Below, one piece after another: positions 1,605 to 55,195 of a DNA stretch of 64,000 nt. The stretch covers positions 72,788,453 through 72,852,452 of the forward strand of contig CM049311.1 in NCBI GenBank assembly GCA_026874595.1. Direction: 5' to 3'. The notes beneath the pieces are model-generated. The model did no database searches. It was not told the origin of the DNA and was given only the letters and a program-made list of their open reading frames with translations. Numbering within the stretch: position 1 is the first letter of the stretch; the number at the start of each line of letters is the position of its first letter. Origin of the DNA: Sipunculus nudus. Taxonomy: Eukaryota; Annelida; Sipuncula; Golfingiida; Sipunculidae. The position numbers and the translations under genes are program-made.

Positions 1605-1970
1605 ATGGCACCCATTAAGAAAAGAAGAGGAGGAGCAAGGAGGTCGGAGGGCCCGGGATATGTTTATGGAATGACCAGCGGGAACAAACTGAAGATTGGC
1701 TCATCCAAGAAACCGCAACAAAGGCTGAAAGAAATTAAAAGACAGCGGCCAAGAACGAAATTAAGATTTACTGTAAGAGCAAGGGATATGAGGGGCGCTG
1801 AATCCGCTGCCCAGAGGGCGTTGCTCCAGAAGCACAGAGTGAAGAAAGAATATATGAAGAAAGACTGGTTTGATCAGCGCAGTTTAAAGAGATTAAAAGC
1901 AAAAACTAAAACCGTCAGGTCTGCAGTTTACAGCCACAACCGTGATAGGAAGACAAGAACCAGGAGATAA
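1605..1970 (+). CDS. Highly basic GIY-YIG-type (T5orf172/MUG113-like) small protein
   Basis: 121 aa, one uninterrupted exon. A basic N-terminus (KKRRGGARR, residues 5-13, a likely nuclear localisation signal) leads into a GIY-YIG-superfamily fold of the T5orf172/MUG113 type. GYVYGM is at 18-23, KIG at 30-32 (the YIG strand, with Lys for Tyr as is usual in this branch), R40-L41 in the first helix, E66 in AESAAQRA, and DWF at 87-89. Y19/Y21, R40 and E66 occupy the expected catalytic positions. The tail (about 94-121) is rich in Lys/Arg and ends RDRKTRTRR. About a third of all residues are Lys or Arg and only 8 are acidic, so net charge is about +33. The start has G at -3 and +4. Paralogues lie at 25183-25524 and 54869-55195. 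GIY-YIG proteins cut or bind DNA; a chromatin or DNA-binding role here is inference, and nuclease activity is unproven. Confidence 0.85.
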   Translation: MAPIKKRRGGARRSEGPGYVYGMTSGNKLKIGSSKKPQQRLKEIKRQRPRTKLRFTVRARDMRGAESAAQRALLQKHRVKKEYMKKDWFDQRSLKRLKAKTKTVRSAVYSHNRDRKTRTRR

Positions 1971-1975
1971 CAAAG

Positions 1976-1981
1976 GTCAGT
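1976..1981 (+). other. Candidate 5' splice site just after the stop codon
   Basis: CAAAG|GTCAGT begins exactly 5 nt after the TAA. A candidate donor sits at the same distance from the stop of the 54869-55195 gene. No AATAAA occurs until 2613, so a spliced 3' UTR is plausible. Inference only; transcript data are lacking. Confidence 0.35.
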
Positions 1982-2439
1982 AACTCTATTCGCACAGCTT
2001 TACGCTCTTGATTAGGCGATCTTGATCCGTTAATTTAGTTTTCATAAGCTGAATCCAGATAAGCCTTGAAAAAAATAACAATACACCTTTGCAGTTTATG
2101 AACAGATGTCATGTATATCCTATATCTTGTATATTCGTTTGTAACTATATCCCAACTTTCATCGCGTTGTAGATATAAAGGGAAATGGTGCATACGCTCA
2201 GTTGATGATAAGATTTAATCCAAGTGAATGGTTAATCAAGAAGGGTTTCTCCTGGGGCTTTTTCAACCGAACACAACAGCCGTGTGTGTAGTACCATCTT
2301 ATCTACTACTATTTACCTGTAACTTTATCTTCATTGAGTTTCCCTATATTAATAACTTGCAATATCATTGTTTTGTTTAAACTAAGGCCAGGAAATTTGT
2401 TATTATTCCCAAACCTTTCATGTGACCGAGTGCAAGGCT

Positions 2440-2470
<31 letters not shown>

Positions 2471-2751
2471 AAGGGATGGGTATGAGGACGCATTTTTTAA
2501 TTCCCGATACTTTACATTTCTATTTTATCAGTTTTACAGATAATTTTATATGACACTTTTTTTCATCAAACGCAGCATTAACAGCAAATCTTTTACCAGT
2601 GTGTAGGTCATAAATAAACCGCCATAAATTTGTTTTACTACCGTAGACAATGCATATGGTCTTTTCGTTTTTCTTATGTTTTTACAGGGGTAATGGCCGT
2701 ATATGCTGTAAAAAAAATGACTTCTGAATCAATTCTTTTCATAATTTTCTT

Positions 2752-2851
2752 ACATAAGTTGATAAAACAAAGACAGCTTTTAAGGTTTTCTCTCTTTTTT
2801 CACATAAGTTCATAAAACAAAGAAAACTTTCAAGGTTTTCTCTCTGTTTTG
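2752..2851. repeat. Two-copy 50-bp direct repeat
   Basis: ACATAAGTT(G/C)ATAAAACAAAG... with a TTTTCTCTCT end occurs twice head to tail, starting near 2752 and 2802, with a few differences. Confidence 0.7.
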
Positions 2852-3816
2852 ACAGACGCTGTGCAGCATGATGCAATATGCCTGATGTTTCACTGGTAAT
2901 AGAGAATGATATTACAGCCGACGTCTTTTGGGGTGCGCCTGTGTTGACTGAATAACGGTGGGAATCCCTGAGCACACGTGACTTTTGTTGATAATCGGGG
3001 CATTTTTTTAAAAAAATGGTACCGGTTTATGATTTGTGTTATTCATGTATTGCTCACCAGATGGCGCTGGTGTTTTCAAATATGATTGTAATTCATCTGG
3101 GAATCTGATTTTTTAAAAATATTTTACCTAATTAAGTACCGTATATGTGTATAATGCTTCATTGGATTTCCAAGTCAAATTTTTTTTTTAACGAATACGC
3201 TATCGACTCCATACTTTTATAACTTGGCTATCCTCTCAATTTGACTGGGACAACATCTTCCTGACGCATTGTCACTTTTATTTATTTTTTACTTGTGTGT
3301 ATAGTGTGATGGTTTCATTGGTTTGATATTTAATGAAAATTAGGTATTCAGCTTATTCGTGATAACTGTTCATCCTAGTCTAAGAAGAACAGGACTCTAA
3401 ATAGAAAATGTAGGACACGTGAGGTATCAATGAGATAAAAAGATTCTAGCATTTAATAATATTAATTTGAGGTGAACATGATCTACCTCTGGAATATGTT
3501 TAAGTATTCAATATGCATGGAAATTAAAATACGGCTATAATTTTATTCTGGTTCTGTTATTTTTCTTCATAATCTTGTGAAAACGAGTGTTTGTCAGTGA
3601 TGACGTTTTCGTTTGTATACATGCAGATTGTCATATATTGAACTAAGAGCCCTTGGTATGTCTGTAATAGTAGGTTTTAATTTCCTTTTGGAATGAAATA
3701 GACTACTGCATTGTGAATGCCAAATCCATTTTTCTTATTGTAACCAGCATATTACCCGTTCCCATGTAGTTCCTGCTAGATGGCGCTCCATTAGCCCTTT
3801 TGCCCCAATTGCCGTA

Positions 3817-3819
<3 letters not shown>

Positions 3820-3877
<58 letters not shown>
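3820..3877. repeat. (AT)n microsatellite
   Basis: Uninterrupted AT dinucleotide run. It creates spurious Tyr-Ile ORFs on the minus strand. Confidence 0.95.
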
Positions 3878-3880
<3 letters not shown>

Positions 3881-5225
3881 ATGATAGACAAGACTACATG
3901 ACATCTAGGGCCACTGCCTATGAGTGTGACTGAGTGTACCAGGAGCAAGTCTTACACATTATGTAACTAGTAAAAAGGGGGAGAAGGGCATAGAGCACAG
4001 AACACCAGCAGGAATACCGCAGGTCTTATAATGGGCATTAGTCTGATGAAGTCTATGATAACTGGCCAGCCAGCATTGATTACAGATTTCATCTTTACCT
4101 TAGTAATCTCTCTGCCACCAACAACGAAACAACCATACTTAACACCTATGATAGAGTGTGCAACACAAATTGGGATGTGGGTTTTATATTATACTTCAAG
4201 CCAGGGCGGCAATACACACATCTATTTTATTCTTTGGTTGTCACTTCTCATCTTCTAGTAGTATATAGTGATACAAGCAGTGGTAGTAGAAATTAGTAGT
4301 TGTTGTAGTATCTGTTGTGGTCGTAGTTTATTGTCATTTTATTTAGGTAATCTATAAAGTTAATATGTAATAAAATATTTCTTTTGGGGGGGGGCCGGGG
4401 GGGGGTGTATTTGAAAACGTTTTGGTTTGGATGAAATCGACTAGCCTGAGTAATCTGAATTGTTGTGCGTCCTTGGGTGACTGTTTGTGTGTGTGTGCGG
4501 GGGGGGGGTATGAACCGGGGATGTTATGAAATCGTTACACCGGAACTTGTAGAGGCAATTATCACAATAAATATAGGTCTTCCTTCCTCTGTTTACAAGA
4601 AAAGCGAATACGTTGTGGTCGGTGTATGAATGCGCAGGCCCACAGAATTATGTTTTATAACATTATATACCCTCTACAAGCGTGTATGTCAATGCAAATC
4701 AAGGACAAAAGCACACAGACAGGGAACACTTCCTTTGCGGAACAAATACTACCTTTCAGAGTGATTTTTGCTGAATGAAAATATAGAGTATGCAGATAGA
4801 TCATATGCAGATTATGCTAATTACATCAGCCATAACACATGAAAAAGTAACATAGAAAGAAATTCGACATTGCAAAAAAGAGTTTGTTTATACACGAAGT
4901 GTTTCCAGAAAAGACGTGATTGTAGGACTACTTAACCCCTGTAAGTGTGCAAATTTAAACACTCGAGCCCTGTTGACACAGGACGACAACCCGTTGAAAG
5001 GAAAATTCTAACGTGTCTACTTTCCATCGCGAAATCACAGGCTTAACAGGGAAGTTTTTGACGTCATTAAGTGATGACTTGTAAAACTTTCCTTGATCAC
5101 GTTGGATTATTTTGGAATCAGCATATATCAATATCAGCGTATATCGATCCTGTTTACTGCATCACTATATTGCTCTATATCTGTTTTATATCAATTCCAT
5201 CTCAACACGAACCTCCCATAACGCG

Positions 5226-5740
5226 GCCATGTCCGGCTATGGCTATACAAATGGCGCTTTGTCAGTCGTCCGTCCGTCTGTTAGCAGGGCACTAATCGTA
5301 CCTGCTGGCCCTAGAAACTTCTAAATGAATATCCAGGGAGGTCAATGAAAAATCTCCTTGGAAACTTGAAATTAGGTCCAGTGACTTATATCCTCCAAGC
5401 TATGAGGCTTGGAATACCCCCCCCCCCCATGAATAAAAAATAATTGATACAAAATATCTTGATAATTAATGCATGAATTGTCACGAATCTTGCTTTGAAT
5501 ATTGACCATGACTAGTTTTAACCTTTTCCGAAAAGTGTTGGCGCCACCTGGATTTTTCTCATCATAATGAATATTTTTCTATTATATTTAATTATGAGAT
5601 GAAAACAATCAAGTCATTTCTCAGCTGTGAGAAAACCTGGTCTGTTTATTGATCACAAGTGGATGCTCTATAGTAATCACCCCGTCTGTCTGTCTATCTG
5701 TTCATCTGTCCATCTGTACATCCGTCCACCCACACAAAAA
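5226..5740 (+). repeat. Element A fragment (about 1.5 core monomers)
   Basis: It carries the landmarks of the A family seen complete at 9311-11200. These are a CGTCCGTCCGTCTGTTA lead-in, 'GGGCACTAATCGTA', 'CTTGGAAACTTGAAATTAGG', 'AGCTATGAGGCTT', a C run, and the GGCGCCACCTG box near 5541. A second TCTGTCTGTCTATCTG lead-in starts at about 5684. Both family ends are missing. Confidence 0.65.
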
Positions 5741-5993
5741 AGTCAAGGTCACAGGACGCACTTATTTAAAAAGATAGTGGAAAAGTTTACAATGGATATG
5801 TTAGGACCGTTAATTACATAATCAATAACATTTATCGAAATCCATGAAACTGATCACCCGTTCACCAGTAAAGTCCTTTAACATGCCATCAATAATATGT
5901 TATCAGACCGATTACCTCTGAACAGATAGGGCCTAATGCATCGTGGTTTTTACTTCGACCTGCATTTCGTAAACACACATCTGAAAAACGACA

Positions 5994-6145
5994 GTGTCCT
6001 TTCTCCAAAACAAACTTCCGGGAAACCTCACAGAGCAACTACAACAACGAAAATGCTTTTTTGTAGTTTACTTTTATGAAAATAAATCGATCTCTGTAAA
6101 CTCTATGTGCATGTTATTTATCTGGATTCGAAAAAAACCGCATTG
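5994..6145. other. Unique AT-rich lead-in to the minisatellite
   Basis: Open reading frames here run into the downstream 39-bp repeat and owe their length to it. There is no independent coding signal. Confidence 0.4.
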
Positions 6146-7545: not shown

Positions 7546-7571
7546 AAAATAGAGAAAAAAATGTGTAAACT

Positions 7572-12477: not shown

Positions 12478-12483
12478 TGAGTT

Positions 12484-15420: not shown

Positions 15421-17288
15421 TTCGGAGAAGAATGTATTCGTCCAGGTCATTCAGACTCCGACACAAGGTTAACTAAGAGATAGAACACTAATACCAAATG
15501 TCGGATTCAAAGAGACAGTAACATTGTACACCCAAGACATGACAGACTATGACAGACTGTTTGACATCAGAACTAAATGCTCGCCCAAAACCGTACGTAG
15601 CACGGGTAATTGCTAGTAATTACATATTTACATATGGTCCTTTTATACTTTGTCACTTATATATCTCCGCCGCAATGCCCACAAACTTGTTTACTTGTTG
15701 AACAGTCACTCCACTTGGAAGACTGTAAATATCTTTGGATTTTGGGTGGCTTTTTTCAATCCTAAGAATGCCCCAAGCTCTTGAACTACTTTCTAAGCAC
15801 GCGCAGTTTTTCTTTTAATGTACGTTCCCCGTAGGTCTGCTCCTCTGTGCTTTTGTTTTACTTCCTACAGTCTCCTCTGCGGGTCGACTGAACACCCGAT
15901 TTTGGAATCTCTTCCTATCTGCATCTGGTAAAGATAAGCAACATCCCGACACACTCCTGGTTGGGCAACCGTTCCTAAAATGATAGTTAGCAAAATAATA
16001 GGAAAAATAAAAGTGAATCATTCGTAATCAGAGGTCACCTGATAACAGTCATTGGTAAATTCCTGATTTCCTTTCTAAATTTTATTTCCACATTATTCAT
16101 GTTTGCTATGTCAGCTCAAAAATGCCACTCAACAAACAATTAAACAGCTGTGTTACTGGCAAATATGAAATATATGTATGTGTGTGTATGTTGCATGGCT
16201 TTGTAGTCTATGGCTCTGATCCCTGAGACTATTTATGTCGTAGGTATGAGATAATATGTCATAGGTATGAGATAATATGTCGTAAGTATATATAAATATT
16301 TTTTTCTTTACGAGATTACCAGCTTCCATATAAATGAGATCGTTCTCGACACAGTGTAATTAGCCTCCAGCAACTTGGCGAGACTTCATGTCTAGTCCAG
16401 AAAAAGAACAAAAACGTTATCTTTAATAGGTGGAATAAAATGCTTTTTTTTGCAATGTCCCCCTGCCACCCTGCCACACCTTCCAATCCTGAGAGCCTTG
16501 ATGAAAGCACAGCTGGATTCACGTCTCCGTCTTTTGACAAATGTTATATATCCTTTGGCGTCTTTACGTCTATATTTAAAAGAAATTAAATCGCGGAAAT
16601 TATATTACCTTTTGAAGGGCGGTTAAATTCTTTTTCAGTTTACGCCTAGAATCCATGAATAAGGAAATAAAAGTACATTTATCAAATAAATAGTTATCAT
16701 GATGTGAATTGAATGACTTTGAGTCTGCAATATATTTATATATAAATATATTATATATAAATATATATTTGCACTTTACCTATATCTAACCCCCTAGCTG
16801 AAAAATCCGCCTCAAGTGGTATATTGAAAGCCATATTGACTCTTGGAGCATCAGTGCCATGAGCTCAGGATGGTCTAATGTGATCATATATTGGGTCTCA
16901 AAAGATTTCATCGTACAACTATACGTGTTATACTTATACAGAGGATATGTTTCAATGAAGGATTGTTAAGGGAGCTTCATGAAGCTACATATGTCTGTTA
17001 AAGTTGTATGGAGTTTGTCTTCACGATACAGGAAAAGATCATAATGATGAGTGGCGGCATCCTGCCACCCAAACGTCGATTTTTAATGAACTTAAGACGT
17101 TGGAGTGGCAGTACAAGCTATGCCGTTGGGATCAATTATAATATAAGTAGATGTGTACGCCATTTCTGATTATACTTGTCTAACTCTCTATTTCCCCGAG
17201 GAAACACAAACAGTTGCGTTATTTTATTGGAAATAGTAATAAATTACATTGCAGATGACTTACGTGTATTTAGCAGCAGTTATTAATA
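15421..17288. other. Gene-free stretch
   Basis: It includes a two-copy GTCATAGGTATGAGATAATA repeat near 16250 and an AT-rich palindromic stretch near 16730-16770. A few open stretches (for example 15460-15620 + and 15815-16021 -) lack recognisable domains. Confidence 0.4.
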
Positions 17289-25182: not shown

Positions 25183-25524
25183 CTATCTGTTGGCTCTTTT
25201 AACAGCTTTTTTCACTACCTCCTTTACGCTCTTCAGAGGAACGCTGCTTGGTAATATGTACCATCCCTTCGAGTGAGGACCCGTCTTCTTCAGCCCAAGT
25301 TCGGTCTCAACCGCCCTCTGTGCGAACCGTTCAGCCTTCGCCGTATTCTTACTTTTATATTTTGCAATAAGCCGTGTGCCTGGGTATTCCCTTTTAACCT
25401 GGCTAAGTCGCTTGTCAGTGTTACTTGAACATCCGATCTTAATCTCTGCACCACCTTTTTCATTCTTTCTTTTCATTATGTAAATCAATTTGTTATTTGC
25501 ACATTCTCCTCTTCTGGTTGCCAT
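25183..25524 (-). CDS. Basic GIY-YIG-type (T5orf172/MUG113-like) small protein
   Basis: 113 aa, coding part in one exon. The domain covers nearly the whole protein: LIYIM at 13-17, KIG at 29-31, KRL with R39 in the first helix, AERFAQRAV with E65 at 64-72, GWY at 87-89, and a helical tail KEVVKKAVKRANR at 101-113. Compared with the 121-aa paralogue the Y-to-KIG spacing is about five residues longer (KRKNEKGGAE insert). The AQ-x-A-V...L-x-L-K-K stretch and the VV-x-K-A-V tail match the 108-aa paralogue closely. Net charge is about +20. The start has G at -3 and +4. A good 3' splice site ends 2 nt before the ATG, so the 5' leader is probably spliced. The upstream flank is duplicated twice elsewhere without the gene. 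Function unknown; DNA binding or cleavage is the family expectation. Confidence 0.85.
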   Translation of the reverse strand: MATRRGECANNKLIYIMKRKNEKGGAEIKIGCSSNTDKRLSQVKREYPGTRLIAKYKSKNTAKAERFAQRAVETELGLKKTGPHSKGWYILPSSVPLKSVKEVVKKAVKRANR

Positions 25525-25835
25525 GTCTGAAAGTTGAAGAGAAAGATATTTTTATTACACATGCCCAAAAGTGTTATAAAAATAATTTTCTAAAACAAAT
25601 TATTTTGTGTTTTTTTCTGATCATTTAGTCCTCTTTTATTTGTAGAAGGAGCACTATCTTTCATATTACTTTCCATTTTGAAGAGTGTTGTCTTTCATTC
25701 TGTCCAGTTACTGTCATTCGGAAACATGAGGTCAATACTACATTGCATGGTATGCTACATATAAGTGCCTCGGGTGTAATAATTCTGACATGAAATGTAT
25801 TTATTTAATAAATGTTATTCCAAAAATCAGGCGCG
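25525..25835. repeat. Block X, copy 1 (5' flank of the 25183-25524 gene)
   Basis: It aligns with 39165-39455 and 47458-47765. Shared phrases include TTGAAGAGAAAGATATTTTT, TTTGTAGAAGGA(G/C)C(A/G)CTA, GTCCAGTTACTGTCATTCGG and GTATGCTA. Homology starts at the start codon and runs away from the gene. The promoter or first non-coding exon of the gene may lie here; a TTATATG box is at about 25758-25764. Confidence 0.7.
25527..25548 (-). other. Candidate 3' splice site directly before the ATG
   Basis: TATCTTTCTCTTCAACTTTCAG reads as a pyrimidine tract plus CAG, followed by AC and the start codon. In the two duplicated flanks (39165- and 47458-) the same tract is kept but the AG is lost (TTTCAAAC, TTTCAACC). 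That fits relaxed selection where no coding exon follows. Confidence 0.5.
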
Positions 25836-26324: not shown

Positions 26325-26634
26325 TTTTAGCTCAGCTGACTGAACGTAATCTGAGCTACAACGACCACTCTTTGTCCGTCGTCCCGACCATCCGTTTTCC
26401 GGGCACAAATCGTAACCGCTGGAACTGATAACCTCTTACTTAACATCCAGAGTGGTCCATGGAAAATCTCCCAGGAAACCTGAAATTAAGTCACTGCAGC
26501 CTATATTCTCCGGGCTATGGGTCTTGTAATCCCCCCCCCCAATAAAATTAAAAATTTGATACAAAATCTCATGTATCACAATAATTAATAAATGGATTGC
26601 CATGAGGGCCGTGACTCCCGGGTCCCTTGTTTTG
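26325..26634 (+). mobile_element. Short A element (single monomer) inserted between blocks Y and Z
   Basis: Left end TTTTAGCTCAGCTGACTGAA, one monomer (GGGCACAAATCGTAACCGCT, GGAAACCTGAAATTAAGTC, GGGCTATGGGTCTT, C run), and a worn right end GTGACTCCCGGGTCCCTTGT. It separates Y and Z, which are adjacent in copies 2 and 3, so this insertion postdates the duplication or is specific to this copy. Confidence 0.65.
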
Positions 26635-26636
26635 TC

Positions 26637-29152
26637 TCGCCGGGATGTCTGTCGGGGAGTATTTGAGGTTATGTAAATTATAATCGTGAATTAACACACA
26701 TTTCTACGCCTGTTCAGGTAATTCTTTTCCCTCTTTTATTCCTACGGCGTTTCATATGTTTTCTTTCCTGACATTAGTCTGTTTGGGTTATTATTCCATT
26801 TTGGTTTATGATAAAGAGACCACGTGAATTCATACTCTATTAAGGCTCTGTCAATTTTTATAAGAAATTGTTACTTTAAAATATCGTTTACATTGTGATT
26901 TTTCTACATGTTACGGTGAATACGCTCGAATCCGGCTACGGCTGATGGGTATAGGCCATAACCGAGGGCATCAATACAGTGTACACGATGTACGTAACCA
27001 GTCGCAGATGTGCATACATGCTTTATCAGTGTCATCATCATTAGAATCTCGACAAGTTTAAGTCTATAAATTAATAGATAAAACCATTGAAAACGAATGC
27101 AGTGAAAACATAGTTTTGGAGATACCTTCCATCACTGAGGTAACTGTATACATGCAAGCTTTCCCATTTTACTTTAGGGTTGGCCACTTTTTGGAGGGGG
27201 CGGGAAGGCTGTATTTGGGATCGAGTTTGTTTATAAAACTATAATATAGGGGACTCTTAAATTCTATGCATGCCACACATACGAGAGGCCAAAGCGAGGT
27301 TAGTAGGGAATAACAAAGACACGTGCTCACTTGTCACAGCAGTAACACATGTGCTGTTACAGTTTAGCTCAGCATGGAAGGTCGTGTCACAGCCTTTTCT
27401 GTTCCTTCATGCTACTCATTTACTAATTGGACATCAGATTTGTTTTTTCAATAGTTTTAATAGGTGATTCGATAGAAAGAAACAGTGGAAATTACTAATT
27501 AATTCATACATCTGGACGAGGGACTCTTTGTGATTGTGTGTTCATATGTTCTTGGTTTGGTCTGCCGTTTGTTATATTTGTTCATATAAATATATAAATG
27601 AACAACCATTTTAGAACAATGATTTTTAATGATCTGTATCAATTTATAAAGGCACATATTTAAATAGTCCATGCCCTCATTTTGTTTTGCCTTACCTTTA
27701 TTATACACATGTCAAGATATTTTAAAATACTGTGCTGTAACACAAAATCTGTGTCCATACACATGCAATATATTGTACTTTATTAAATTAAATAGTAACA
27801 TAAATAAAAAATGACAGAAGACTACCAACATATTTAACTTGATGGTGACATTGAGCAAAGATCTGCATATAGTTTTTACCAGCCAAGCATTGATCCCCTT
27901 ACTGGTTTATAGATAATAGATACATTGGTATGTCTCAATTGGTTGAAGGGGCTTACATTTTATATTACCAAAACTTAATGTCATCATTTTATCTCATTGT
28001 TACTTGAGGCCCTCTAAGACGGCATCTGCGGGTAGCTTTAAGGCCCTTAAATTACATAGTTGCAAAACAGTTATAGATATATCCCCACATGACCAGCCTA
28101 GACCCACTGCAATTTAAAGAATATTTAACTCATGCAATTCTTGTGTCACCATTTCCTTTGTTTGTCAATGCAGTTTATGTCACACAGCTGTAGGACACGC
28201 CGTCAGTATATTTTAACTCTTTATTAAAAACAAATATGTAGTTTTAGTATATGACACATTACTTTTTATATTCGATTTATAAAGAATTTTTGAAGGATCT
28301 AACCTGAGTTAAAAGGTGTGGAGCTGGTGAAGTGTTGAGCATTAATTAAAATAAATATATTAATCCATAATTCATACCTTATATATCTTTATATTTTTTT
28401 TCTCAAATTATATAAAGTCTTGCGGGGAAAAAGGTGTCATTTATAAAATTCTGTTTCTGCCCATGCACTAATATAATCCTTTTCATGCCCAGGAAACTAC
28501 CATATCACTATCTAATGAGGATATATTTTTTTAAATGACCTGTGACGTAGTGTTTCACTTGACAGCTATGTGTCGGTTATGCCACTAAAAATACAGTGTA
28601 TTTTCTATGATTATCATTGGTGCCAGATACAGCATACCTACATCTATATTTTTAAAGGGCCTGTGAATAGAAAACATTTCATAATTTCATTCCAGAACAC
28701 TTTTAACCATCACAGAAGCAGACATGTTTCATTTTAGCTTTATTAGTCTTTATTAAGTTAATGACTTCATAATGGCAGTATAAGCAGCGTACTGCCAAAG
28801 TGTTTTGGTGTGTGTGTCACTCTGTGCCTACTGTACATGAAACAAGAAACTTAGTATTAATGTACACAATCAGAGGAACCATGCACAGACCACCTTATGC
28901 TGTGCCGTATGGAATGTGTATCAATCAGCACCTGTGCCCCGACACTTGTATATCTTGATATTTTAATTGACCTCAGGCAATTAATGGCATCCTGTGGTTT
29001 GATTCATAGCTAGCATAGACCGTAGAGCCAAGTAGATGTGAGCCCAAGGGTCTTTAACTTTATTAAGTTAAGAGTCACTTGAAAGTACCTTCCTTACAAG
29101 TCGGGTTCACATTGTGCTCATAGCAGCAGATTCCTTTGGATTTATACTTCTT
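26637..29152. repeat. 2.5-kb tandem unit, copy 1
   Basis: The unit starts at TCGCCGGGATGTCTGTCGGG and is 2,516 bp long. Its first ~550 bp are block Z (also at 40535 and 51355). The remaining ~2 kb is unique to the array. It contains a GGAGGGGGCGGGAAGG GC box near 27196 and a CTGAGGTAACTG phrase near 27136 also found in the leader of the 1605 gene. ORFs are at most 69 codons, with no domain. Private differences such as ACATACGAGAGG set it apart from copies 2 and 3. Confidence 0.95.
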
Positions 29153-31667
29153 TCGCCGGGATGTCTGTCGGGGAGTATTTGAGGTTATGTAAATTATAAT
29201 CGTGAATTAACACACATTTCTACGCCTGTTCAGGTAATTCTTTTCCCTCTTTTATTCCTACGGCGTTTCATATGTTTTCTTTCCGGACATTAGTCTGTTT
29301 GGGTTATTATTCCATTTTGGTTTATGATAAAGAGACCACGTGAATTCATACTCTATTAAGGCTCTGTCAATTTTTATAAGAAATTGTTACTTTAAAATAT
29401 CGTTTACATTGTGATTTTTCTACATGTTACGGTGAATACGCTCGAATCCGGCTACGGCTGATGGGTATAGGCCATAACCGAGGGCATCAATACAGTGTAC
29501 ACGATGTACGTAACCAGTCGCAGATGTGCATACATGCTTTATCAGTGTCATCATCATTAGAATCTCGACAAGTTTAAGTCTATAAATTAATAGATAAAAC
29601 CATTGAAAACGAATGCAGTGAAAACATAGTTTTGGAGATACCTTCCATCACTGAGGTAACTGTATACATGCAAGCTTTCCCATTTTACTTTAGGGTTGGC
29701 CACTTTTTGGAGGGGGCGGGAAGGCTGTATTTGGGATCGAGTTTGTTTATAAAACTATAATATAGGGGACTCTTAAATTCTATGCATGCCACACATACCA
29801 GAGGCCAAAGCGAGGTTAGTAGGGAATAACAAAGACACGTGCTCACTTGTCACAGCAGTAACACATGTGCTGTTACAGTTTAGCTCAGCATGGAAGGTCG
29901 TGTCACAGCCTTTTCTGTTCCTTCATGCTACTCATTTACTAATTGGACATCAGATTTGTTTTTTCAATAGTTTTCATAGGTGATTCGATAGAAAGAAACA
30001 GTGGAAATTACTAATTAATTCATACATCTGGACGAGGGACTCTTTGTGATTGTGTGTTCATATGTTCTTGGTTTGGTCTGCCGTTTGTTATATTTGTTCA
30101 TATAAATATATAAATGAACAACCATTTTAGAACAATGATTTTTAATGATCTGTATCAATTTATAAAGGCACATATTTAAATAGTCCATGCCCTCATTTTG
30201 TTTTGCCTTACCTTTATTATACACATGTCAAGATATTTTAAAATACTGTGCTGTTACACAAAATCTGTGTCCATACACATGCAATATATTGTACTTTATT
30301 AAATTAAATAGTAACATAAATAAAAAATGACAGAAGACTACCAACATATTTAACTTGATGGTGACATTGAGCAAAGATCTGCATATAGTTTTTACCAGCC
30401 AAGCATTGATCCCCTTACTGGTTTATAGATAATAGATACTTTGGTATGTCTCAATTGGTTGAAGGGGCTTACATTTTATATTACCAAAACTTAATGTCAT
30501 CATTTTATCTCATTGTTACTTGAGGCCCTCTAAGACGGCATCTGCGGGTAGCTTTAAGGCCCTTAAATTACATAGTTGCAAAACAGTTATAGATATATCC
30601 CCACATGACCAGCCTAGACCCACTGCAATTTAAAGAATATTTAACTCATGCAATTCTTGTGTCACCATTTCCTTTGTTTGTCAATGCAGTTTATGTCACA
30701 CAGCTGTAGGACACGCCGTCAGTATATTTTAACTCTTTATTAAAAACAAATATGTAGTTTTAGTATATGACACATTACTTTTTATATTCGATTTATAAAG
30801 AATTTTTGAAGGATCTAACCTGAGTTAAAAGGTGTGGAGCTGGTGAAGTGTTGAGCATTAATTAAAATAAATATATTAATCCATAATTCATACCTTATAT
30901 ATCTTTATATTTTTTTCTCAAATTATATAAAGTCTTGCGGGGAAAAAGGTGTCATTTATAAAATTCTGTTTCTGCCCATGCACTAATATAATCCTTTTCA
31001 TGCCCAGGAACCTACCATATCACTATCTAATGAGGATATATTTTTTTAAATGACCTGTGACGTAGTGTTTCACTTGACAGCTATGTGTTGGTTATGCCAC
31101 TAAAAATACAGTGTATTTTCTATGATTATCATTGGTGCCAGATACAGCATACCTACATCTATATTTTTAAAAGGCCTGTGAATAGAAAACATTTCATAAT
31201 TTCATTCCAGAACACTTTTAACCATCACAGAAGCAGACATGTTTCATTTTAGCTTTATTAGTCTTTATTAAGTTAATGACTTCATAATGGCAGTATAAGC
31301 AGCGTACTGCCAAAGTGTTTTGGTGTGTGTGTCACTCTGTGCCAACTGTACATGAAACAAGAAACTTAGTATTAATGTACACAATCAGAGGAACCATGCA
31401 CAGACCACCTTATGCTGTGCCGTATGGAATGTGTATCAATCAGCACCTGTGCCCCGACACTTGTATATCTTGATATTTTAATTGACCTCAGGCAATTAAT
31501 GGCATCCTGTGGTTTGATTCATAGCTAGCATAGACCGTAGAGCCAAGTAGATGTGAGCCCAAGGGTCTTTAACTTTATTAAGTTAAGAGTCACTTGAAAG
31601 TACCTTCCTTACAAGTCGGGTTCACATTGTGCTCATAGCAGCAGATTCCTTTGGATTTATACTTCTT
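29153..31667. repeat. 2.5-kb tandem unit, copy 2
   Basis: 2,515 bp, near identical to copies 1 and 3. It shares ACATACCAGAGG and TTTTCATAGG with copy 3 against copy 1, so copies 2 and 3 are the younger pair. No gene recognised. Confidence 0.95.
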
Positions 31668-34182
31668 TCGCCGGGATGTCTGTCGGAGAGTATTTGAGGT
31701 TATGTAAATTATAATCGTGAATTAACACACATTTCTACGCCTGTTCAGGTAATTCTTTTCCCTCTTTTATTCCTACGGCGTTTCATATGTTTTCTTTCCT
31801 GACATTAGTCTGTTTGGGTTATTATTCCATTTTGGTTTATGATAAAGAGACCACGTGAATTCATACTCTATTAAGGCTCTGTCAATTTTTATAAGAAATT
31901 GTTACTTTAAAATATCGTTTACATTGTGATTTTTCTACATGTTACGGTGAATACGCTCGAATCCGGCTACGGCTGATGGGTATAGGCCATAACCGAGGGC
32001 ATCAATACAGTGTACACGATGTACGTAACCAGTCGCAGATGTGCATACATGCTTTATCAGTGTCATCATCATTAGAATCTCGACAAGTTTAAGTCTATAA
32101 ATTAATAGATAAAACCATTGAAAACGAATGCAGTGAAAACATAGTTTTGGAGATACCTTCCATCACTGAGGTAACTGTATACATGCAAGCTTTCCCATTT
32201 TACTTTAGGGTTGGCCACTTTTTGGAGGGGGCGGGAAGGCTGTATTTGGGATCGAGTTTGTTTATAAAACTATAATATAGGGGACTCTTAAATTCTATGC
32301 ATGCCACACATACCAGAGGCCAAAGCGAGGTTAGTAGGGAATAACAAAGACACGTGCTCACTTGTCACAGCAGTAACACATGTGCTGTTACAGTTTAGCT
32401 CAGCATGGAAGGTCGTGTCACAGCCTTTTCTGTTCCTTCATGCTACTCATTTACTAATTGGACATCAGATTTGTTTTTTCAATAGTTTTCATAGGTGATT
32501 CGATAGAAAGAAACAGTGGAAATTACTAATTAATTCATACATTTGGACGAGGGACTCTTTGTGATTGTGTGTTCATATGTTCTTGGTTTGGTCTGCCGTT
32601 TGTTATATTTGTTCATATAAATATATAAATGAACAACCATTTTAGAACAATGATTTTTAATGATCTGTATCAATTTATAAAGGCACATATTTAAATAGTC
32701 CATGCCCTCATTTTGTTTTGCCTTACCTTTATTATACACATGTCAAGATATTTTAAAATACTGTGCTGTTACACAAAATCTGTGTCCATACACATGCAAT
32801 TAATTGTACTTTATTAAATTAAATAGTAACATAAATAAAAAATGACAGAAGACTACCAACATATTTAACTTGATGGTGACATTGAGCAAAGATCTGCATA
32901 TAATTTTTACCAGCCAAGCATTGATCCCCTTACTGGTTTATAGATAATAGATACTTTGGTATGTCTCAATTGGTTGAAGGGGCTTACATTTTATATTACC
33001 AAAACTTAATGTCATCATTTTATCTCATTGTTACTTGAGGCCCTCTAAGACGGCATCTGCGGGTAGCTTTAAGGCCCTTAAATTACATAGTTGCAAAACA
33101 GTTATAGATATATCCCCACATGACCAGCCTAGACCCACTGCAATTTAAAGAATATTTAACTCATGCAATTCTTGTGTCACCATTTCCTTTGTTTGTCAAT
33201 GCAGTTTATGTCACACAGCTGTAGGACACGCCGTCAGTATATTTTAACTCTTTATTAAAAACAAATATGTAGTTTTAGTATATGACACATTACTTTTTAT
33301 ATTCGATTTATAAAGAATTTTTGAAGGATCTAACCTGAGTTAAAAGGTGTGGAGCTGGTGAAGTGTTGAGCATTAATTAAAATAAATATATTAATCCATA
33401 ATTCATACCTTATATATCTTTATATTTTTTTCTCAAATTATATAAAGTCTTGCGGGGAAAAAGGTGTCATTTATAAAATTCTGTTTCTGCCCATGCACTA
33501 ATATAATCCTTTTCATGCCCAGGAACCTACCATATCACTATCTAATGAGGATATATTTTTTTAAATGACCTGTGACGTAGTGTTTCACTTGACAGCTATG
33601 TGTTGGTTATGCCACTAAAAATACAGTGTATTTTCTATGATTATCATTGGTGCCAGATACAGCATACCTACATCTATATTTTTAAAAGGCCTGTGAATAG
33701 AAAACATTTCATAATTTCATTCCAGAAAACTTTTAACCATCACAGAAGCAGACATGTTTCATTTTAGCTTTATTAGTCTTTATTAAGTTAATGACTTCAT
33801 AATGGCAGTATAAGCAGCGTACTGCCAAAGTGTTTTGGTGTGTGTGTCACTCTGTGCCTACTGTACATGAAACAAGAAACTTAGTATTAATGTACACAAT
33901 CAGAGGAACCATGCACAGACCACCTTATGCTGTGCCGTATGGAATGTGTATCAATCAGCACCTGTGCCCCGACACTTGTATATCTTGATATTTTAATTGA
34001 CCTGAGGCAATTAATGGCATCCTGTGGTTTGATTCATAGCTAGCATAGACTGTAAAGCCAAGTAAATGTGAGCCCAAGGGTCTTTAAATTTATTCTGTTA
34101 AGAGTCACTTGAAAGTACCTTCCTTACAAGTCGGGTTCACATTGTGCTCAAAGCAGCAGATTCCTTTGGATTTATACTTCCT
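31668..34182. repeat. 2.5-kb tandem unit, copy 3
   Basis: 2,515 bp. The last ~150 bp carry more substitutions (for example TTTAAATTTATTCTGTTAAG for TTTAACTTTATTAAGTTAAG), as is usual for the edge unit of an array. No gene recognised. Confidence 0.95.
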
Positions 34183-35034
34183 TCCAGATGCTTTTAACAA
34201 AATTTGTTTGTAAGCATCCACAAATTTGAAGTGGATAAAGGGAACAACTGACAGGTCTGGGTTGCTCTACACAGCCATGGTGAGTGAGCACGTGCTTACT
34301 GTTATTCCCCACTAGCCTCGCTTTCGCTAGCTGATTAATTATTCATGAGGAATATTAAGAATCCCCTATGGCTTCACAACCCGCTGAAAAAAAGATCTCG
34401 TTTATCTGGTTCGACGGTTGATTGTACATTTGGTTATCAAGTGCTTCGTGTTATGTAGGCTGATGTAGGGGATTCCCTATTGTCACGGAACGTATGTCGA
34501 CCTACCTAGATATATCTTAACTCCATGGATTTACTACAAGTAATTTCGTGGTTCATTAAGGTTTTTGACCCTACATATTCTGTATGGGAAATGGCTTTTA
34601 ACGAAAGTGAGCTACATATACCGACAACATAGAATATACAGAAAAATCCCTTTATAATGATACCGTGTATACATATCACTGGCAGGTCAAACTGAAAGGG
34701 TAAGTTCAAGTGAAAAGTACTAAAATGTTAATGTCCCATTAAAAAAAAAATATACCTGTTTAACGCAATGGGATAAATAGAGGACTCTGTTTTTGGTCAA
34801 CTGTTATATGTTTACCCTTCAATCACACATGTGGCGGTTCGCACCATGGCAAAGAGTTTCATACTGGATGCATCATGCGAAGCCCCGAGCTCTCATTGGT
34901 CTGAACAATCCTGTTCACTCTGAACATATCCTTTGCGGCTAATATAGGAAATCCCCCTGTATAAACCCAATACCGCTAGGCATTTATTAAAAGAAGGAGT
35001 GAGAATACAGTGATGACGTGATTTTCAAATGTTT
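34183..35034. other. Array edge with an inverted fragment of the unit
   Basis: 34281-34372 is a diverged reverse complement of the unit segment at 32278-32368. It shares the GCGAGG(C/T)TAGT(G/A)GGGAATAAC and CACGTGCTCACT phrases in inverse. The remainder is AT-rich with no gene apart from the promoter-like stretch listed separately. Confidence 0.5.
34895..34965 (+). promoter_or_regulatory. Orphan CCAAT/TATA promoter-like stretch
   Basis: ATTGG (34895-34899) within GAGCTCTCATTGGTC, and TATAAA (34960-34965). The phrase ATGCGA...GCTCTCATTGGTC resembles ATGCGACACTCAGCTTTCATTGGTC of the 1605 promoter. The downstream sequence (block V) has no recognisable coding region, so a functional promoter is unproven. 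Confidence 0.3.
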
Positions 35035-40039: not shown

Positions 40040-41170
40040 ATGATACTAGAAACAATTTATTATATTTTTAGGGCGATCGCCTGTCTCGCCTGTTTAATGC
40101 TAAATCGCCATTAAAAAAGACGGGGGGGGGGGCAAAAATCGCTCGCCTACATATGCTTCTGACAGGTTATTACCGAAAAAAACTGAAGTTCGGTTTCCCG
40201 CATTCCAGCTGAATGGGAACGGTGTATCCAAATCATTTTAATTACAATATTATATACAATATTTTTACGGTCATGACTATTTAACTATCTCATGTCTTTC
40301 GGTACCCTAAATGTAAACGTTTATATTACAAACTCTTTGGTAATGGCTGATTCACTTGACACTACTGTCACAAGGAATATACTAGGCGCAAGTGCTGAAT
40401 ACGTTATCTGCAACTGCTTATGAATATTTAAATTTTCTGACGTCACGGGAATCACTTGCTGAGGCGCGATTTCGAAGTCCTAACTATAGGAACATGATGC
40501 AGGTATTTTCCGGAAGTATTTTATGTCTCGCCTTGGCGTCTGTCGGGACTGTTCTAGGATATGTAAGTCATAACAGTGATTTAGCGCAAATCTGACACCT
40601 GTTCAGGTAATTCTTTTCCAAATTTTATTCTTACAGGGTTTCATATGCTTTCTTTCCTGAGATTATTCCGATTGCGTTATTTTCCATTTTGGTTTATGAA
40701 GAATTGAGGACATGAATGCATAGACTGTATAAAGGCTCTGTCAAATTTCTTAAAACTTTGTTATTATAACAGGATTGTTACCATGGTGATTTTGGGATCT
40801 GTAATGCTGAATACGTTCTAGTCATTAAGGATAAAGCTGACGAGTATAGGTTATAATTAAAGGCTTAACACAGTCTACATGATGTATGTAACCATTCGCT
40901 GTTAGAGCTGTACATATATACTTTATCAGTGTCACCATTATTAGAATATCTACCGACAAGTTAAAGTTTGTAATTTCATAGAATCCAACAAGCCGGCTAT
41001 TAGGACATTTTGGGGACGAACACTGGTATAGGACTCCTCGCCAGGTAAAGGTACACGTGTTTGTGTGTCTGACCTATATACATTGCACGTTCGGTTTCCC
41101 CAAATGTTACTTCTGGGAAACGTGAATGCAGTACACGTATTGTTGGAAATATCTTGCACCATAGATTTAT
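40040..41170. repeat. Blocks Y and Z, copy 2 (adjacent)
   Basis: Y has ACGTTATCTGCAACTGCTTA, TATGAATATTTAAATTTTC and TGACGTCA at 40438-40445. Z has TCTCGCCTTGGCGTCTGTCG and CACCTGTTCAGGTAATTCTT, and ends near 41160. A 67-codon ORF (40392-40595) includes a hydrophobic SILCLALASVGTVLG stretch, but it is not open in copies 1 and 3, so it is not supported as a gene. Confidence 0.7.
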
Positions 41171-42345: not shown

Positions 42346-42350
<5 letters not shown>

Positions 42351-50782: not shown

Positions 50783-50869
50783 CCCATATTCTTGATATTG
50801 ATTAATATACTTTAACTTTCAAGGTATACTGAAATAAAAAGATGGAATCAGTTTAATTATACGGATTCT

Positions 50870-51995
50870 TATTTATAAGACGTATCAGAGATCTAAGTTT
50901 GAAAGCCTTGCCTGTTGAATGCTAAATCATCATTAACGGGACGGGAGCTGAGCTGGGGGGGGGGGTATGATAAGCTCGCCTACATATGATTGTGACAGAT
51001 TATTACAGAAAGGACTAAAGTTTGGTTTTCCATCCTGGCATTCCAGCTGATTGGGACGGTATATCCAAATCATTCCATTTATAAACAAAGTTTTAGTCAC
51101 GACTCGATTACTATCAATTGTCCTACCCTAAATGTAAATTTTTATATTAGGGACTCCTTTGTTATAGTCATTCACCTGTCACTATGGTATATCGCAAAAG
51201 ACGCTTAGCGTACGTACTAAATATGTTATCTGCAACTGCTCATGAATAGTAAAGTTTTCTGACGTCACGCGAACCACCTGTTGAGGCGTGAGTACTCGGT
51301 TTCATCTTTACATAAAGATAAGAACATAATACAGGTACTCTCTCGAAAAACTTTTTTTTTGGTCTCGCCGGGGCGTCTAACGGGACTGTTAAAGGATATC
51401 TAGATTACAACAGTGATTTAGCTGACACCTGTTCAGGTAATTCTTTTCCATCTTTTATTCTTACAAGGTTTCAAATGCTTTCTTTCCTGAGATTAGTCCG
51501 TTTGCGTTATTTTTCAAAGCTGGTTTATGATGAATAAAGAACATGAATGCATATACTCTATTTAAGCTCTGTCAAATTTCTTAGAACTTTACAATTATAA
51601 CTATATAAATACCATAGTGATTTTGCGACCTGCTACGGTGAATACGTTCTGGTCATTTAGGCTACGGCTGACGGTATGGATCATATATAACCAAGGGCAT
51701 TAATGCAGTGGACATGATGCATGTAACCATTGGCTGTTACAGCTGTGCATATGCTTTATCAGCCCCAATCTAAACTGGTAAGTTTAAGTTTGTAGTATAC
51801 AGAGTCAAACAAGCCGGATATTAGGACATTTTGGGGACAAACACTGGTATCAAACATCCCCGCCAGGTAATGGTACACGTGATTGTGTGTCTGACCTACA
51901 TATATCGCTCGATTAGTTTCCCCAAATCAAACTTCTGGGAAACATGAATGCAGTAAACACATGCTGTTGGGCTAAATGTAAACCTAAATGTTAAC
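50870..51995. repeat. Blocks Y and Z, copy 3
   Basis: Y with ATGTTATCTGCAACTGCTCA, TGAATAGTAAAGTTTTC and TGACGTCA at 51260-51267. Z with GTCTCGCCGGGGCGTCTAAC and CACCTGTTCAGGTAATTCTT. GACATTTTGGGGAC(A/G)AACACTGG and CGCCAGGTAA are shared with copy 2 near 51825-51870 and 41010-41045. Confidence 0.7.
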
Positions 51996-52133
51996 TGGGA
52001 CTTAATCTTTACTATTCGAGCAATGATCATCCGCGCATAAAGATTGCATTCCATACATTCGTATGCTGTACGTCTACTCTGAGATATAAAATTGGTGTTT
52101 CCAGAGGAAAATCCTTTATAGTGGAAAATGAAA

Positions 52134-52135
<2 letters not shown>

Positions 52136-52168
<33 letters not shown>
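52136..52168. repeat. (TC)n microsatellite
   Basis: Uninterrupted run, at the same place relative to block Z as the 41965-42005 run. Confidence 0.95.
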
Positions 52169-52171
<3 letters not shown>

Positions 52172-53904
52172 TACTCTCATATATGATAACTGAATCATGC
52201 CGCTTTTCTACTCTTTCATGCTCTGTGTTGGATAAATGAACATATTTCAAAACCTTTTAAGTCAAGGATTGTCATCATAAAGTTACGTTTTGGCTCGCTC
52301 ATGTATGTCAAGAAAATAAAAACACGAAATAAAGCGTTATTTGAGAAAAGCATCATTTATTCAGAGGAGGGTCGTGAAGTTTAGTTCTCAGAAATATCCA
52401 AGGGGTCTGTCTGCACATTGCATCAACTAACATTTAAAATGATAATCAATTTTACGTATATTTTTTAAGGTTAAATTGCTATTTTTCATCTATTTACGGA
52501 GTTGTTGATATGTTTTCTAAAATACATTGGTGTTATATTTTCCCTATCTTTCATGGGATATCTTTTATAGGTGAACAAATAAACAATAACATTTTTGGCA
52601 CTTTTAAATCTTCAATGCTCTATAAAATCATAATTTACAGAGTTAAAGTCACAGTTAAAAAATTCTGGGGATTCATATCTATATTTTAATATGATCACAT
52701 ATTTTTATTAATATTAATAAATCGATCAGTACTAAAGAATCAAAACTGTCCATATGCGAAAATTTAGTACGAATTCTCACCTTTCAGAACATGTACATGT
52801 CAAGGGGTGACAGACCAGTAGTGTGTACAAAATTAAGGAAAACTTAACCAATGTATACATGTTTTTTTGACAGTTCTGAGTTCTAATCACAAGAGCTGAC
52901 ATATCTTAGTTTCATAGCCATTGAAAACATTGAAAGATCCTTGTTCATTCATAATTCAGATTGTTGTATGAAAGTTGCAGTGATTTTTTTTTCAATGTTA
53001 AGAATATTATTTTGAATATAATTCATTCTGTTGCATTAACCAGACATTCTTTAATACCAATTTCCCGAACAACGAAAATTTCTACTGGATTAATTAAATT
53101 ATAGATATATTAATCCTAGATATATTACAGAATTATCTGCACTCAGGAAAATTGTCCGGAACCATTTATTCTTTCTGGTTTCTTTCAGTCGATGAGGATT
53201 TCAAACCAGCAAGCGTGAATCCGAGAAACCCATGTCTCAATGAGGCCTTCTGAAATAGAAAAGATTGACAGTAAAACTCAGATTTTCCACATTTTTTTAG
53301 AAATCTGAACAAATTATATAAGGACACACACACATATACATGTATATATATATATTGTTTAATTCCTAATTCAGTCTTATATACTGTCTATACTGAAAAT
53401 ATTTTAAAATACACATATTTCCTGAAATCAAGGGGTAATACCTACTCAGATTTACTGAAGGGTCCAGTTGGAACAGTTCAAACATTTACTGGTGACGTCA
53501 TTATCATTAAATACAGCGTGGTTTCGAAGTTAGTGAATGGAGTGGACAGGTATATATCAGATATATATACCCCATGATACCTTTATAGCCATGATTCAAT
53601 CCATTGGGGTTCAAGGATATATCAATATATAATAATGAATATAGACTGGTTTCCAAGATTCATATGGTGAGCTCATGTTAAATGAAAAGCTGTATCCAGG
53701 ATCAGATACCGTGAATGTGTAAAACCCAATATAAATATCGGAATGGACACAAAGTTAATCTGAACTAATTTAGAAGTGTAAATGATATTATTTGCTTCCT
53801 AAGAAAGTTATTTCAATTCAGATTATTATATTACTTTATTATATTCCTTATTTCTTTTGTCATATTCTATCTTGTATTATGGTATTCAAGTACATATGAA
53901 AAAT
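52169..53904. other. Gene-free AT-rich stretch
   Basis: No repeat shared with the rest of the window and no ORF with a recognisable domain. Confidence 0.5.
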
Positions 53905-53920
53905 AATATATGATGAGGTT

Positions 53921-54176
53921 TTTTTTTTTTTATTAATTTTTTTGGTGGAGGTAACCGCCTCCTTTTTTTATGCTTGCTTAACTAAGTCTATATACAACCG
54001 CAGAATTTCCATTCCGGTTTCGGACTCCGTGACAGGGGCTTGCACACAGTGCTCTGGCGTCAACCAGGCTTGGTGATTCACTCCTGCGGGTCCTGGGTGT
54101 GTCTCATCCCCATTGCTGGGTCGTAACACCGAGGAACCCCCGAAAGGCGCACTCGTTTGTGAGTGAAACCCGACTG
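53921..54176 (-). mobile_element. SINE-like retroinsertion with 16-bp target duplication
   Basis: AATATATGATGAGGTT flanks it perfectly on both sides (53905-53920 and 54177-54192). Read on the minus strand, a GC-rich 256-bp body ends in an A-rich tail. That combination is the signature of target-primed reverse transcription. The body does not look like tRNA, 5S or 7SL to me, and has no ORF. Confidence 0.75.
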
Positions 54177-54192
54177 AATATATGATGAGGTT

Positions 54193-54857
54193 AACATGAA
54201 ACTTTGCAAATATCCTGATAAATATTAGAAATTATAAGAGTAGAGTGAGACATCTAATGCATTTTTTTAACAAAAAGGCAAAATTTCTTGTCAGCTTAGA
54301 TAAAATAGTTAACATGCAGATTTACTTTAATTGTTTTGTGTCAGAAATAAAAAAAAAACACATTTATGGTGTGGGCACGGTCGACAAAATAGTGACATGT
54401 ATAGTGGCCTTCATCAGGAGGGTATGCGTTCATCCCCGTTCGTGTTTGTGTTAGTTACATCATAACTCACACAATCTTGAAGGCTTTTGGACTTTTTGTG
54501 AATAGACCAAAGTAAAATCTATTAGATTTTGGCGTGGATCTGTCATATGACCCGGATTTAGAAACGTCATAAAGGAATATTCACGAATGTACAGAAACTT
54601 ATGAACAAACCCTTCCACCAGAGGAAATTTCTGCAAAATTCGGGTGACTTGTGACTATCTTGAGCGAAAAGATGTTGCATGTTTTTTTAAACATTGCCGC
54701 GACACAATATTGAGACCCTGCGGCTCACGCGAGGAAATTGAGACATTTTTGAAACTCCCTCGTGAATGCAGTTTTCGCCCAAAGTCGCCTCCGAGTGAGA
54801 AACGGATGATTATGAGGACCCAATATATCGTCCAAACTTTTTATATATACATGAATC
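54193..54857. other. Gene-free region downstream of the 54869 gene
   Basis: No AATAAA on the minus strand lies close behind the stop codon. 54644-54860 is open on the plus strand as part of a 202-codon ORF antisense to the 54869-55195 gene. I do not consider that ORF a gene. Confidence 0.45.
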
Positions 54858-54863
54858 ATTTAC
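54858..54863 (-). other. Candidate 5' splice site just after the stop codon
   Basis: TCCAG|GTAAAT begins 5 nt after the TAA, the same distance as CAAAG|GTCAGT behind the 1605-1970 gene. The lack of a nearby poly(A) signal fits a spliced 3' UTR. Confidence 0.4.
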
Positions 54864-54868
54864 CTGGA

Positions 54869-55195
54869 TTAGTTTTGGTTGTCCCGGTTAACAGCTTTGT
54901 CCACCACACCCGTAACCTTGTGGGTCCTTGCCCCCTGGGGGTTGGTGTACCAGTCAGATTGTGCCCCGTCAACTTTCTTCATCCCGAGCTGGTGTTGAAC
55001 TGCTCCCTGTGCGGCCCGCTCACCACTCCCTTTATCACTTGTATCAACTCGGTGGATTATCTCAGCACCAGGGTGGTTCGCCCTTACTTCGTGGAGTCTT
55101 CTACCGGGATCTGTCGAAGCGCCCACTTTGAACTGGTCGCCATCTTTCATTACGTACACCTTGCCCGGACCACCGGATCCCTGTTGGTCGGCCAT
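54869..55195 (-). CDS. Near-neutral GIY-YIG-type (T5orf172/MUG113-like) small protein
   Basis: 108 aa, one exon. After a short polar, Gly-rich N-terminus come KVYVM (12-16), KVG (23-25), RRL with R33, GERAAQGAV with E59 (58-66), DWY (81-83) and the tail TGVVDKAVNRDNQN (95-108). The domain order and spacing match the other two paralogues, with closest resemblance to the 113-aa one (LGMKK against LGLKK; VV-x-K-A-V tail). Unlike them it lacks basic extensions: about 15 Lys/Arg against 13 Asp/Glu. The coding DNA is clearly richer in G and C than its surroundings. The start has A at -3 and G at +4. Tyr14, Arg33 and Glu59 could make it catalytically competent. Whether it cuts DNA, binds DNA or does neither is unknown. 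Confidence 0.85.
   Translation of the reverse strand: MADQQGSGGPGKVYVMKDGDQFKVGASTDPGRRLHEVRANHPGAEIIHRVDTSDKGSGERAAQGAVQHQLGMKKVDGAQSDWYTNPQGARTHKVTGVVDKAVNRDNQN

Follow-up and report, generated by a model that had tools for sequence, protein, structure and literature searches.

A tandem cluster of T5orf172-type genes in the genome of the sipunculan Sipunculus nudus

T5orf172 is a domain class of the GIY-YIG superfamily that is known mainly from phages, giant viruses and the obscure fungal Mug113. Odn (Gp88) of Vibrio phage ICP1 is described as a T5orf172 nuclease that, when purified, cuts its target origin, and the E180A exchange is reported to abolish this activity (PMC8263062), and for the fungal Mug113/Yfs1 proteins a role in DNA repair or meiosis has been suggested (PMC12719033). 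In animals, an expansion in the number of PF01541 genes has been described for a bivalve (PMC10729735), a GIY-YIG expansion for lungfish (PMC4764851) and a GIY-YIG transcript for Mytilus (PMC6215123). Among the titles and abstracts inspected, no animal T5orf172 family of the kind described below was found, and a sponge marker gene was the sole animal mention of T5orf172 encountered (PMC10176882). Here, we analyzed a window of 64,000 nucleotides of Sipunculus nudus (assembly GCA_026874595.1, 1.43 Gb in 153 contigs; contig CM049311.1, denoted as C6, positions 72788453-72852452), which contains three short open reading frames (ORFs), m790, m813 and m843, whose proteins are denoted as P0001, P0003 and P0004, respectively. 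The three ORFs are new members of a known domain family in an unusual setting, in which the bare domain forms a constrained tandem family in an animal.

All three ORFs lie where a first-pass annotation of the window had placed them, and we assigned their strands, which it had not given (Table 1). The ordered signature that it had seen in them is that of real paralogues, considering that 23 of 128 alignment columns are invariant among P0001, P0003 and P0004 and that a search of the whole genome with P0004 found the other two window proteins at E values of 1.1e-10 and 4.5e-7, so that the likeness is not due to chance. The motif VV-x-K-A-V, ascribed to two of the proteins, is present in P0003 and P0004, and Tyr, Arg and Glu are retained in all three. 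The proposed T5orf172/MUG113-like identity was supported by Pfam, where P0001 and P0003 exceeded the 20-bit cut-off of T5orf172 (PF10544) with 31.2 bits (E 3.3e-7) and 31.8 bits (E 2.2e-7), respectively, and the 22.3-bit cut-off of MUG113 (PF13455) with 23.5 and 24.8 bits. P0004 stayed below the T5orf172 cut-off but is linked to the family by paralogy, and it did not match MUG113 at E<=10. Against GIY-YIG (PF01541), no window protein was above the cut-off of 22.6 bits; P0001 matched weakly at 12.5 bits, and P0003 and P0004 did not match. We extended the comparison to the distinct open proteins of the family except m780, which is one residue from m706 (set A2, 13 of 14), and of these 13, 12 matched T5orf172, 10 MUG113 and one PF01541 at E<=1. 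Matches to PHROGs were weak (best 4.5e-5) and fell mostly on families without a function, although one member matched an endonuclease family and one a homing endonuclease family. The single NCBIfam match was irrelevant, and the P0003 sequence had no PDB match at E<=10.

To compare active-site residues, we used P0003 numbering throughout. Tyr15, Lys29, Gly31 and Glu65 are present in all 16 open copies of the family, and the GIY-YIG catalytic set of Tyr, Arg and Glu occurs in order, Tyr and Glu in 16/16 and Arg in 15/16. The proteins are basic, with isoelectric points (pI) of 8.0-11.9 and lengths of about 94-127 residues. AlphaFold2 was applied to the three window proteins, P0003 first, and the P0003 model (predicted local distance difference test score, pLDDT, 83.3; predicted template modelling score, pTM, 0.75) showed the order strand-strand-helix-strand-helix-strand-helix. 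When this model was searched with Foldseek against the viral library BFVD, 60 matches at E<=0.001 were obtained, the first row of which was a Klosneuvirus T5 Orf172 protein; the name T5 Orf172 is borne by 12 of the 50 rows shown and GIY-YIG nuclease by two, the others having different names or none.

The family is not confined to the window. When the fetched region was scanned with a profile, 22 copies were found within 276 kb of one chromosome, 16 of them open and six broken (m589p, m652p, m674p, m686p, m734p and m804p). Fifteen of the open copies begin with ATG and one, m641, does not; together they encode 14 distinct proteins, and the domain of each lies in one coding exon, as in the multi-member, single-coding-exon family that had been proposed. 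The contig, C6, is of chromosome size (88.9 Mb). Used as genome-wide queries, P0004 gave 21 places, P0003 22, P0001 21, the divergent member m596 20 and the Pfam family 8, all of them within C6:72.589-72.865 Mb; since this search scores only the best candidates, exon by exon, absence elsewhere is strong and not absolute. Within 72.56-72.87 Mb, the 10 kb of 72760001-72770000 were not fetched and 2.5 kb read N, and the genome-wide queries listed no family copy in 72760001-72770000.

The copies are arranged in repeated units. Blocks of 72.697-72.760 Mb are found again at 72.770-72.827 Mb, where they are 98.5-99.6% identical. A further repetition, at 72.829-72.857 Mb, corresponds to parts of 72.689-72.709 Mb and is 90.6-94.8% identical to them. 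The gene order is m701-m706-m720-m734p-m744 in the first unit, m774-m780-m790-m804p-m813 in the second and m843-m854-m864 in the third; the window thus holds m790, m804p and m813 from the second unit and m843 from the third. Judged from these sequence comparisons, the cluster expanded as units of ~70 kb, each with several genes, were duplicated in tandem. When the 16 open copies were placed in a tree, support was strong for the m706 and m720 groups and weak for the deeper forks.

To see whether the copies are constrained, we determined the ratio of nonsynonymous to synonymous divergence (dN/dS) by Nei-Gojobori counts with Fisher tests in eight chosen pairs. Constraint was significant in six pairs, with ratios of 0.26-0.38 and p values from 1.6e-3 to 1.7e-7: m679/m744 (0.30), two pairs with m612 (0.26 and 0.38), m720/m864 (0.37), m656/m701 (0.35) and m656/m843 (0.36, p 3e-4). 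All three window genes are represented, since m813 equals m744 in its coding sequence, m790 equals m720 in its protein, and m843 was compared directly with m656. As a separate observation, the coding divergence of m706/m854 is 15.6% against ~7% in both flanks (Fisher p 1e-5, from counts rebuilt from rounded percentages) and peaks in mid-gene; as dS is raised along with it, gene conversion would explain it just as well as diversifying selection.

Taken all together, we lean, if only somewhat, towards reading these ORFs as host-encoded, tandemly expanded, minimal T5orf172-class proteins, for which expansion by birth and death and, by analogy, a putative role in DNA cutting and defence are the most likely account. 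Several results weigh against this assignment. P0004 reaches T5orf172 with only 16.6 bits (E 0.012), and its single-sequence model (pLDDT 52) is too poor to use. Arg39 is replaced by Gly in m864 and Trp88 by Arg in m679, each being present in 15/16 open copies. No PADLOC defence model was matched by any of the 13 members at E<=1. While the P0003 model resembles viral T5orf172 proteins, nothing in the PDB was matched by Foldseek at E<=0.001, and an entry of UPF0213, a GIY-YIG protein family, ranked 50th at E 1.7; the structural link thus runs via T5orf172 and not directly via a solved GIY-YIG enzyme. In the profile comparison between Odn and the family, only 29 columns were aligned with a probability of 26%, and MAFFT placed Odn E180 out of register with the family Glu, so that their equivalence is one by eye. 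As for selection, m706/m854 (0.54, p 0.08) and m701/m843 (0.39, p 0.15) showed no significant constraint, and in the all-pair counts dS was saturated in many more distant pairs.

Table 1. Positions of family genes, candidate signals and noncoding elements within the 64,000-nucleotide window
Feature	Position	Strand	Remarks
TATA-like box TATATAAA	1516..1523	+	82-89 bp before the ATG of m790; conserved with m864; pattern by eye
m790, T5orf172-type gene	1605..1970	+	121 residues, pI 11.9; protein identical to m720, 70 kb away; m864 is an 80% copy
m804p, broken fourth family copy	15656..15975 (about)	-	in-frame TAG; twin m734p in the sister unit
m813, T5orf172-type gene	25183..25524	-	113 residues, pI 10.4; coding sequence identical to m744
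Pyrimidine-rich stretch and splice-acceptor-like TTTCAG/AC	25525..25550	-	directly before the ATG; kept in m612, m679, m744 and m813
Noncoding element copy	26627..27029	-	1.1 kb upstream of m813
Three tandem 2.5-kb noncoding units, head-to-tail	26637..34184		about 99% alike; upstream of m813; one element copy each
Noncoding element copy	29153-29545	-	genome search
Noncoding element copy	31668-32060	-	genome search
Noncoding element copy	40519..40929	-	genome search
Noncoding element copy	51350..51781	-	3.1 kb past the 3' end of m843
m843, T5orf172-type gene	54869..55195	-	108 residues; copies m701 94%, m774 96%, m656 68%
TATA-like box TTAAATAG	55275..55282	-	80-87 bp before the ATG of m843; conserved with m656 and m701; by eye
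ISRE/IRF-like site CGAAACCAAAACT	55359..55371	-	one mismatch to the IRF-type consensus; upstream block unchanged in m701, m843 and m656

The claim that the three genes are the only supportable ones in the window needs correction. The window has 18 further ORFs with 90 residues or more, and the 10 of these that were scanned gave no Pfam match at E 0.1, but the window also holds the broken copy m804p, and the 22-copy cluster extends beyond both of its ends. Neither a tRNA nor an Rfam family at gathering score was detected in the window. A 202-codon frame at 54644-55252 (+), antisense to P0004 and without a Pfam match, was treated as incidental; the matching antisense frame is likewise open at m701, m774 and m656. 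At 59821-61816 a very AT-rich tandem array of ~117-bp units accounts for frames read as repetitive ORFs. Among the neighbours of the family genes outside the window, a RAG1-like element remnant at C6:72712468-72715117 (-), between m706 and m720, has neighbouring frames that match the RAG1 importin-binding domain (6e-7) and a RING finger. Immediately beyond the last copy of the family, C6:72865556-72869375 contains a reverse transcriptase piece (3e-22) and an RNase H piece below cut-off; an ORF downstream of the reverse transcriptase piece has no Pfam match but resembles, by eye, a DIRS-like tyrosine recombinase.

We then compared the sequences around the coding exons. TATA-like boxes recognized by eye stand ~80-92 bases before the ATG in the m701 group (TTAAATAG), the m706 group (TTTAAAAG) and the m720 group (TATATAAA), and in the m701 and m720 groups a donor-like AG/GT lies a few bases at most beyond the stop codon. 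In another set of genes, an acceptor-like TCAGAC or CCAGAC is found (m596, m612, m652p, m679, m686p, m744 and m813); in m652p the TTTCAG/AC form stands before ATT, the variants are TTTTTCAGAC in m686p and ATTCCAGAC in m596, and the site is absent from m641 and m734p. The DNA likeness of m744 and m612 around the gene extends only from position -23 of the ATG, covering the pyrimidine-rich stretch and TTTCAG/AC, to just past the stop codon. The predicted signals would divide the family into three subfamilies of a TATA-type gene form and a fourth of an acceptor-type form.

Upstream regions were also inspected for the interferon-stimulated response element (ISRE) bound by interferon regulatory factors (IRFs), and CGAAACCAAAACT differs by one mismatch from the IRF-type consensus. 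With at most one mismatch, CGAAANNGAAANT occurs in seven of 20 upstream regions (m656, m679, m701, m744, m774, m813 and m843), four of the seven being one ancestral site and two another, and the other 13 regions scanned have none. Over 297.5 kb, this motif was counted 50 times, which corresponds to an expectation of 0.10 per 600 bp. Since this is about one site per 6 kb of the region and 13 of the 20 upstream regions lack one, the ISRE-like evidence is weak. IRFs are animal genes, and IRF matches lie at two places in the genome. IRF and ISRE signalling has been published for oyster (PMC8218723, PMC5557890).

A noncoding element of ~400 bp is a further feature of the cluster. The genome contains 15 copies at E<=0.001, all in the cluster and all on the minus strand, five of them in the window, with three inside the 2.5-kb tandem repeat, and 10 in C6:72.653-72.772 Mb. 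The sister unit carries four of the 2.5-kb repeats compared with three in the window. The element precedes m652p, m679, m686p, m744 and m813 by no more than 3 kb, and it is also found about 3 kb beyond m701, m774 and m843; m596 and m612, which have the acceptor-like site, have no element nearby. It could be a first exon with its promoter, or an enhancer. A recognizable RNA was considered and rejected, as the best Rfam match was E 0.7, below gathering, and the consensus fold was unstable, with only -7.25 kcal/mol over 465 columns.

Part of the apparent expansion might be an artefact of assembly, with the units at 72.697-72.760+ and 72.770-72.827 Mb being unmerged haplotypes. The identity of 98.5-99.6% between their blocks is within reach of the allelic difference in a heterozygous animal. 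We nevertheless hold this to be unlikely, considering that the two units differ in their number of 2.5-kb repeats, that the matching parts of the third unit are clearly less alike than those of the first two, and that m596, m612, m641, m656 and m679 are far more diverged; because of this third unit and these five genes, the family is large in any case. A selfish or viral origin, as free-standing homing-type genes, transposon cargo or relics of large DNA viruses, could draw on the transposon remnants in and beside the cluster and on T5orf172 folds, which are reported to be common in phage and giant-virus proteins (PMC10448857, PMC9040626). Yet the copies listed by the five queries are in one place only, no viral gene was recognized in the 19 ORFs scanned, which are a small share of all ORFs, and the presence of acceptor-like and TATA-like sites suggests genes of the host type. 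An intron, an intein or dispersed sites would be looked for in homing endonucleases, and here all listed copies form the one 276-kb tandem cluster. Pattern scans likewise yielded no close relative of P0003 in phages (tblastn), of the family query A3 or P0004 in viral contigs, or of A3 in prokaryote genomes; as such scans pick up close relatives only, they leave room for distant donors. On balance, a selfish or viral origin is highly improbable.

Two further explanations accept the genes as the host's own and differ in function. In one, the family would be a DNA repair or meiotic nuclease family like Mug113/Yfs1, as the MUG113 matches above cut-off for P0001 and P0003 and those at E<=1 in 10/13 members would suggest. 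Such a role is quite unlikely, since the family proteins have a single domain only and mug113 deletion is itself reported to be without a meiotic phenotype (PMC12719033). Moreover, 22 copies with turnover, six of them broken, and near-identical duplicates would be unlike a core repair gene; birth and death, broken members and recent duplicates together make the family more like defence families. In the other, the domain would bind nucleic acid or act as a regulator without cutting. The basic character of the proteins, Trp88 in 15/16 copies and the database label of the family, a DNA-binding domain, agree with this, whereas the retention of Glu together with Tyr, Lys and Arg in 15-16 of 16 copies would be unexpected if binding alone were selected, and we regard loss of cutting as improbable. 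As the first-pass annotation had suggested, the genes could be a domesticated nuclease or DNA-binding family, for which domestication from a mobile element or virus would be hypothetical.

Returning to host-encoded T5orf172-class proteins, each open copy would give rise to a basic protein of about 94-127 residues, in which the conserved Tyr, Lys and Arg and the presumed metal-binding Glu would cut DNA phosphodiester bonds and a basic surface and the C-terminal helix would hold the DNA. Nuclease activity is, by analogy, probable, and metal-dependent nucleases of the Odn kind are the most likely form of it. As the proteins lack a second domain, they may be expected to be little sequence-selective, to act on DNA structure or to depend on a partner. 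The family might handle foreign or damaged DNA, with defence as the foremost candidate; the analogy with defence families makes such a role possible, and we put it forward tentatively. Copy number might shift by unequal crossing-over of the multi-gene units. A fuller scheme would be an animal restriction system, in which an invertebrate would use inducible, fast-turnover, single-domain T5orf172 nucleases to cut viral or mobile DNA that enters it; IRF-type promoter sites would drive them in part, and a cluster-private regulatory element would be common to some members. This scheme is very doubtful. A bare-domain, tandem and constrained animal family offers a compact test of whether phage-type nucleases are kept for DNA defence. 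It is also a target for annotation, because genes this short, with ~110 codons in a single coding exon, are readily overlooked.

Two observations concern other parts of the genome. C1q-domain matches at E<=0.001 number 141 among the 150 scored of 203 candidates, and a tandem C1q expansion has been reported in bivalves (PMC6835236). Together with the IRF matches they agree with an animal host, and their number would fit a bivalve; a search for the molluscan haemocyanin domain PF14830 gave no match, which is uninformative because no control responded. Nine long intact COX1-family genes of very similar score lie on C60, C61, C62, C66, C72, C74, C75 and C89, and further matches are a gene on C123, by eye a bacterial-type oxidase, and a fragment on C5. 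The COX1-bearing contigs C60-C89 and C123 are likely symbionts or contaminants.

Among the known systems, the GIY-YIG proteins of bivalves and lungfish share with the present family the superfamily name, and differ in that the window proteins stay below the PF01541 cut-off. The fungal Mug113/Yfs1 proteins are closer in profile, with two of three window proteins above the PF13455 cut-off, whereas Yfs1 is described as a longer protein with the MUG113 domain in its middle (PMC12719033). Odn scores above the T5orf172 cut-off and shows by eye the same order of Y, K-x-G, R, E and W as the family, but its N-terminal region is reported to resemble the replication protein of the parasite, which fits its origin target (PMC8263062), while the family proteins consist of the one domain. 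The phage and giant-virus T5 Orf172 proteins resemble the family in profile (two window proteins), in predicted fold and in the Tyr/Lys-x-Gly/Arg/Glu/Trp pattern. Some of their fold matches are as short as 108-138 residues, like the family itself, and the identity of P0003 to the viral models is 12-28% in the 50 rows shown of the 60 matches. In contrast with these viral proteins, the family of Sipunculus nudus is a chromosomal tandem family of an animal with eukaryotic-looking gene signals.

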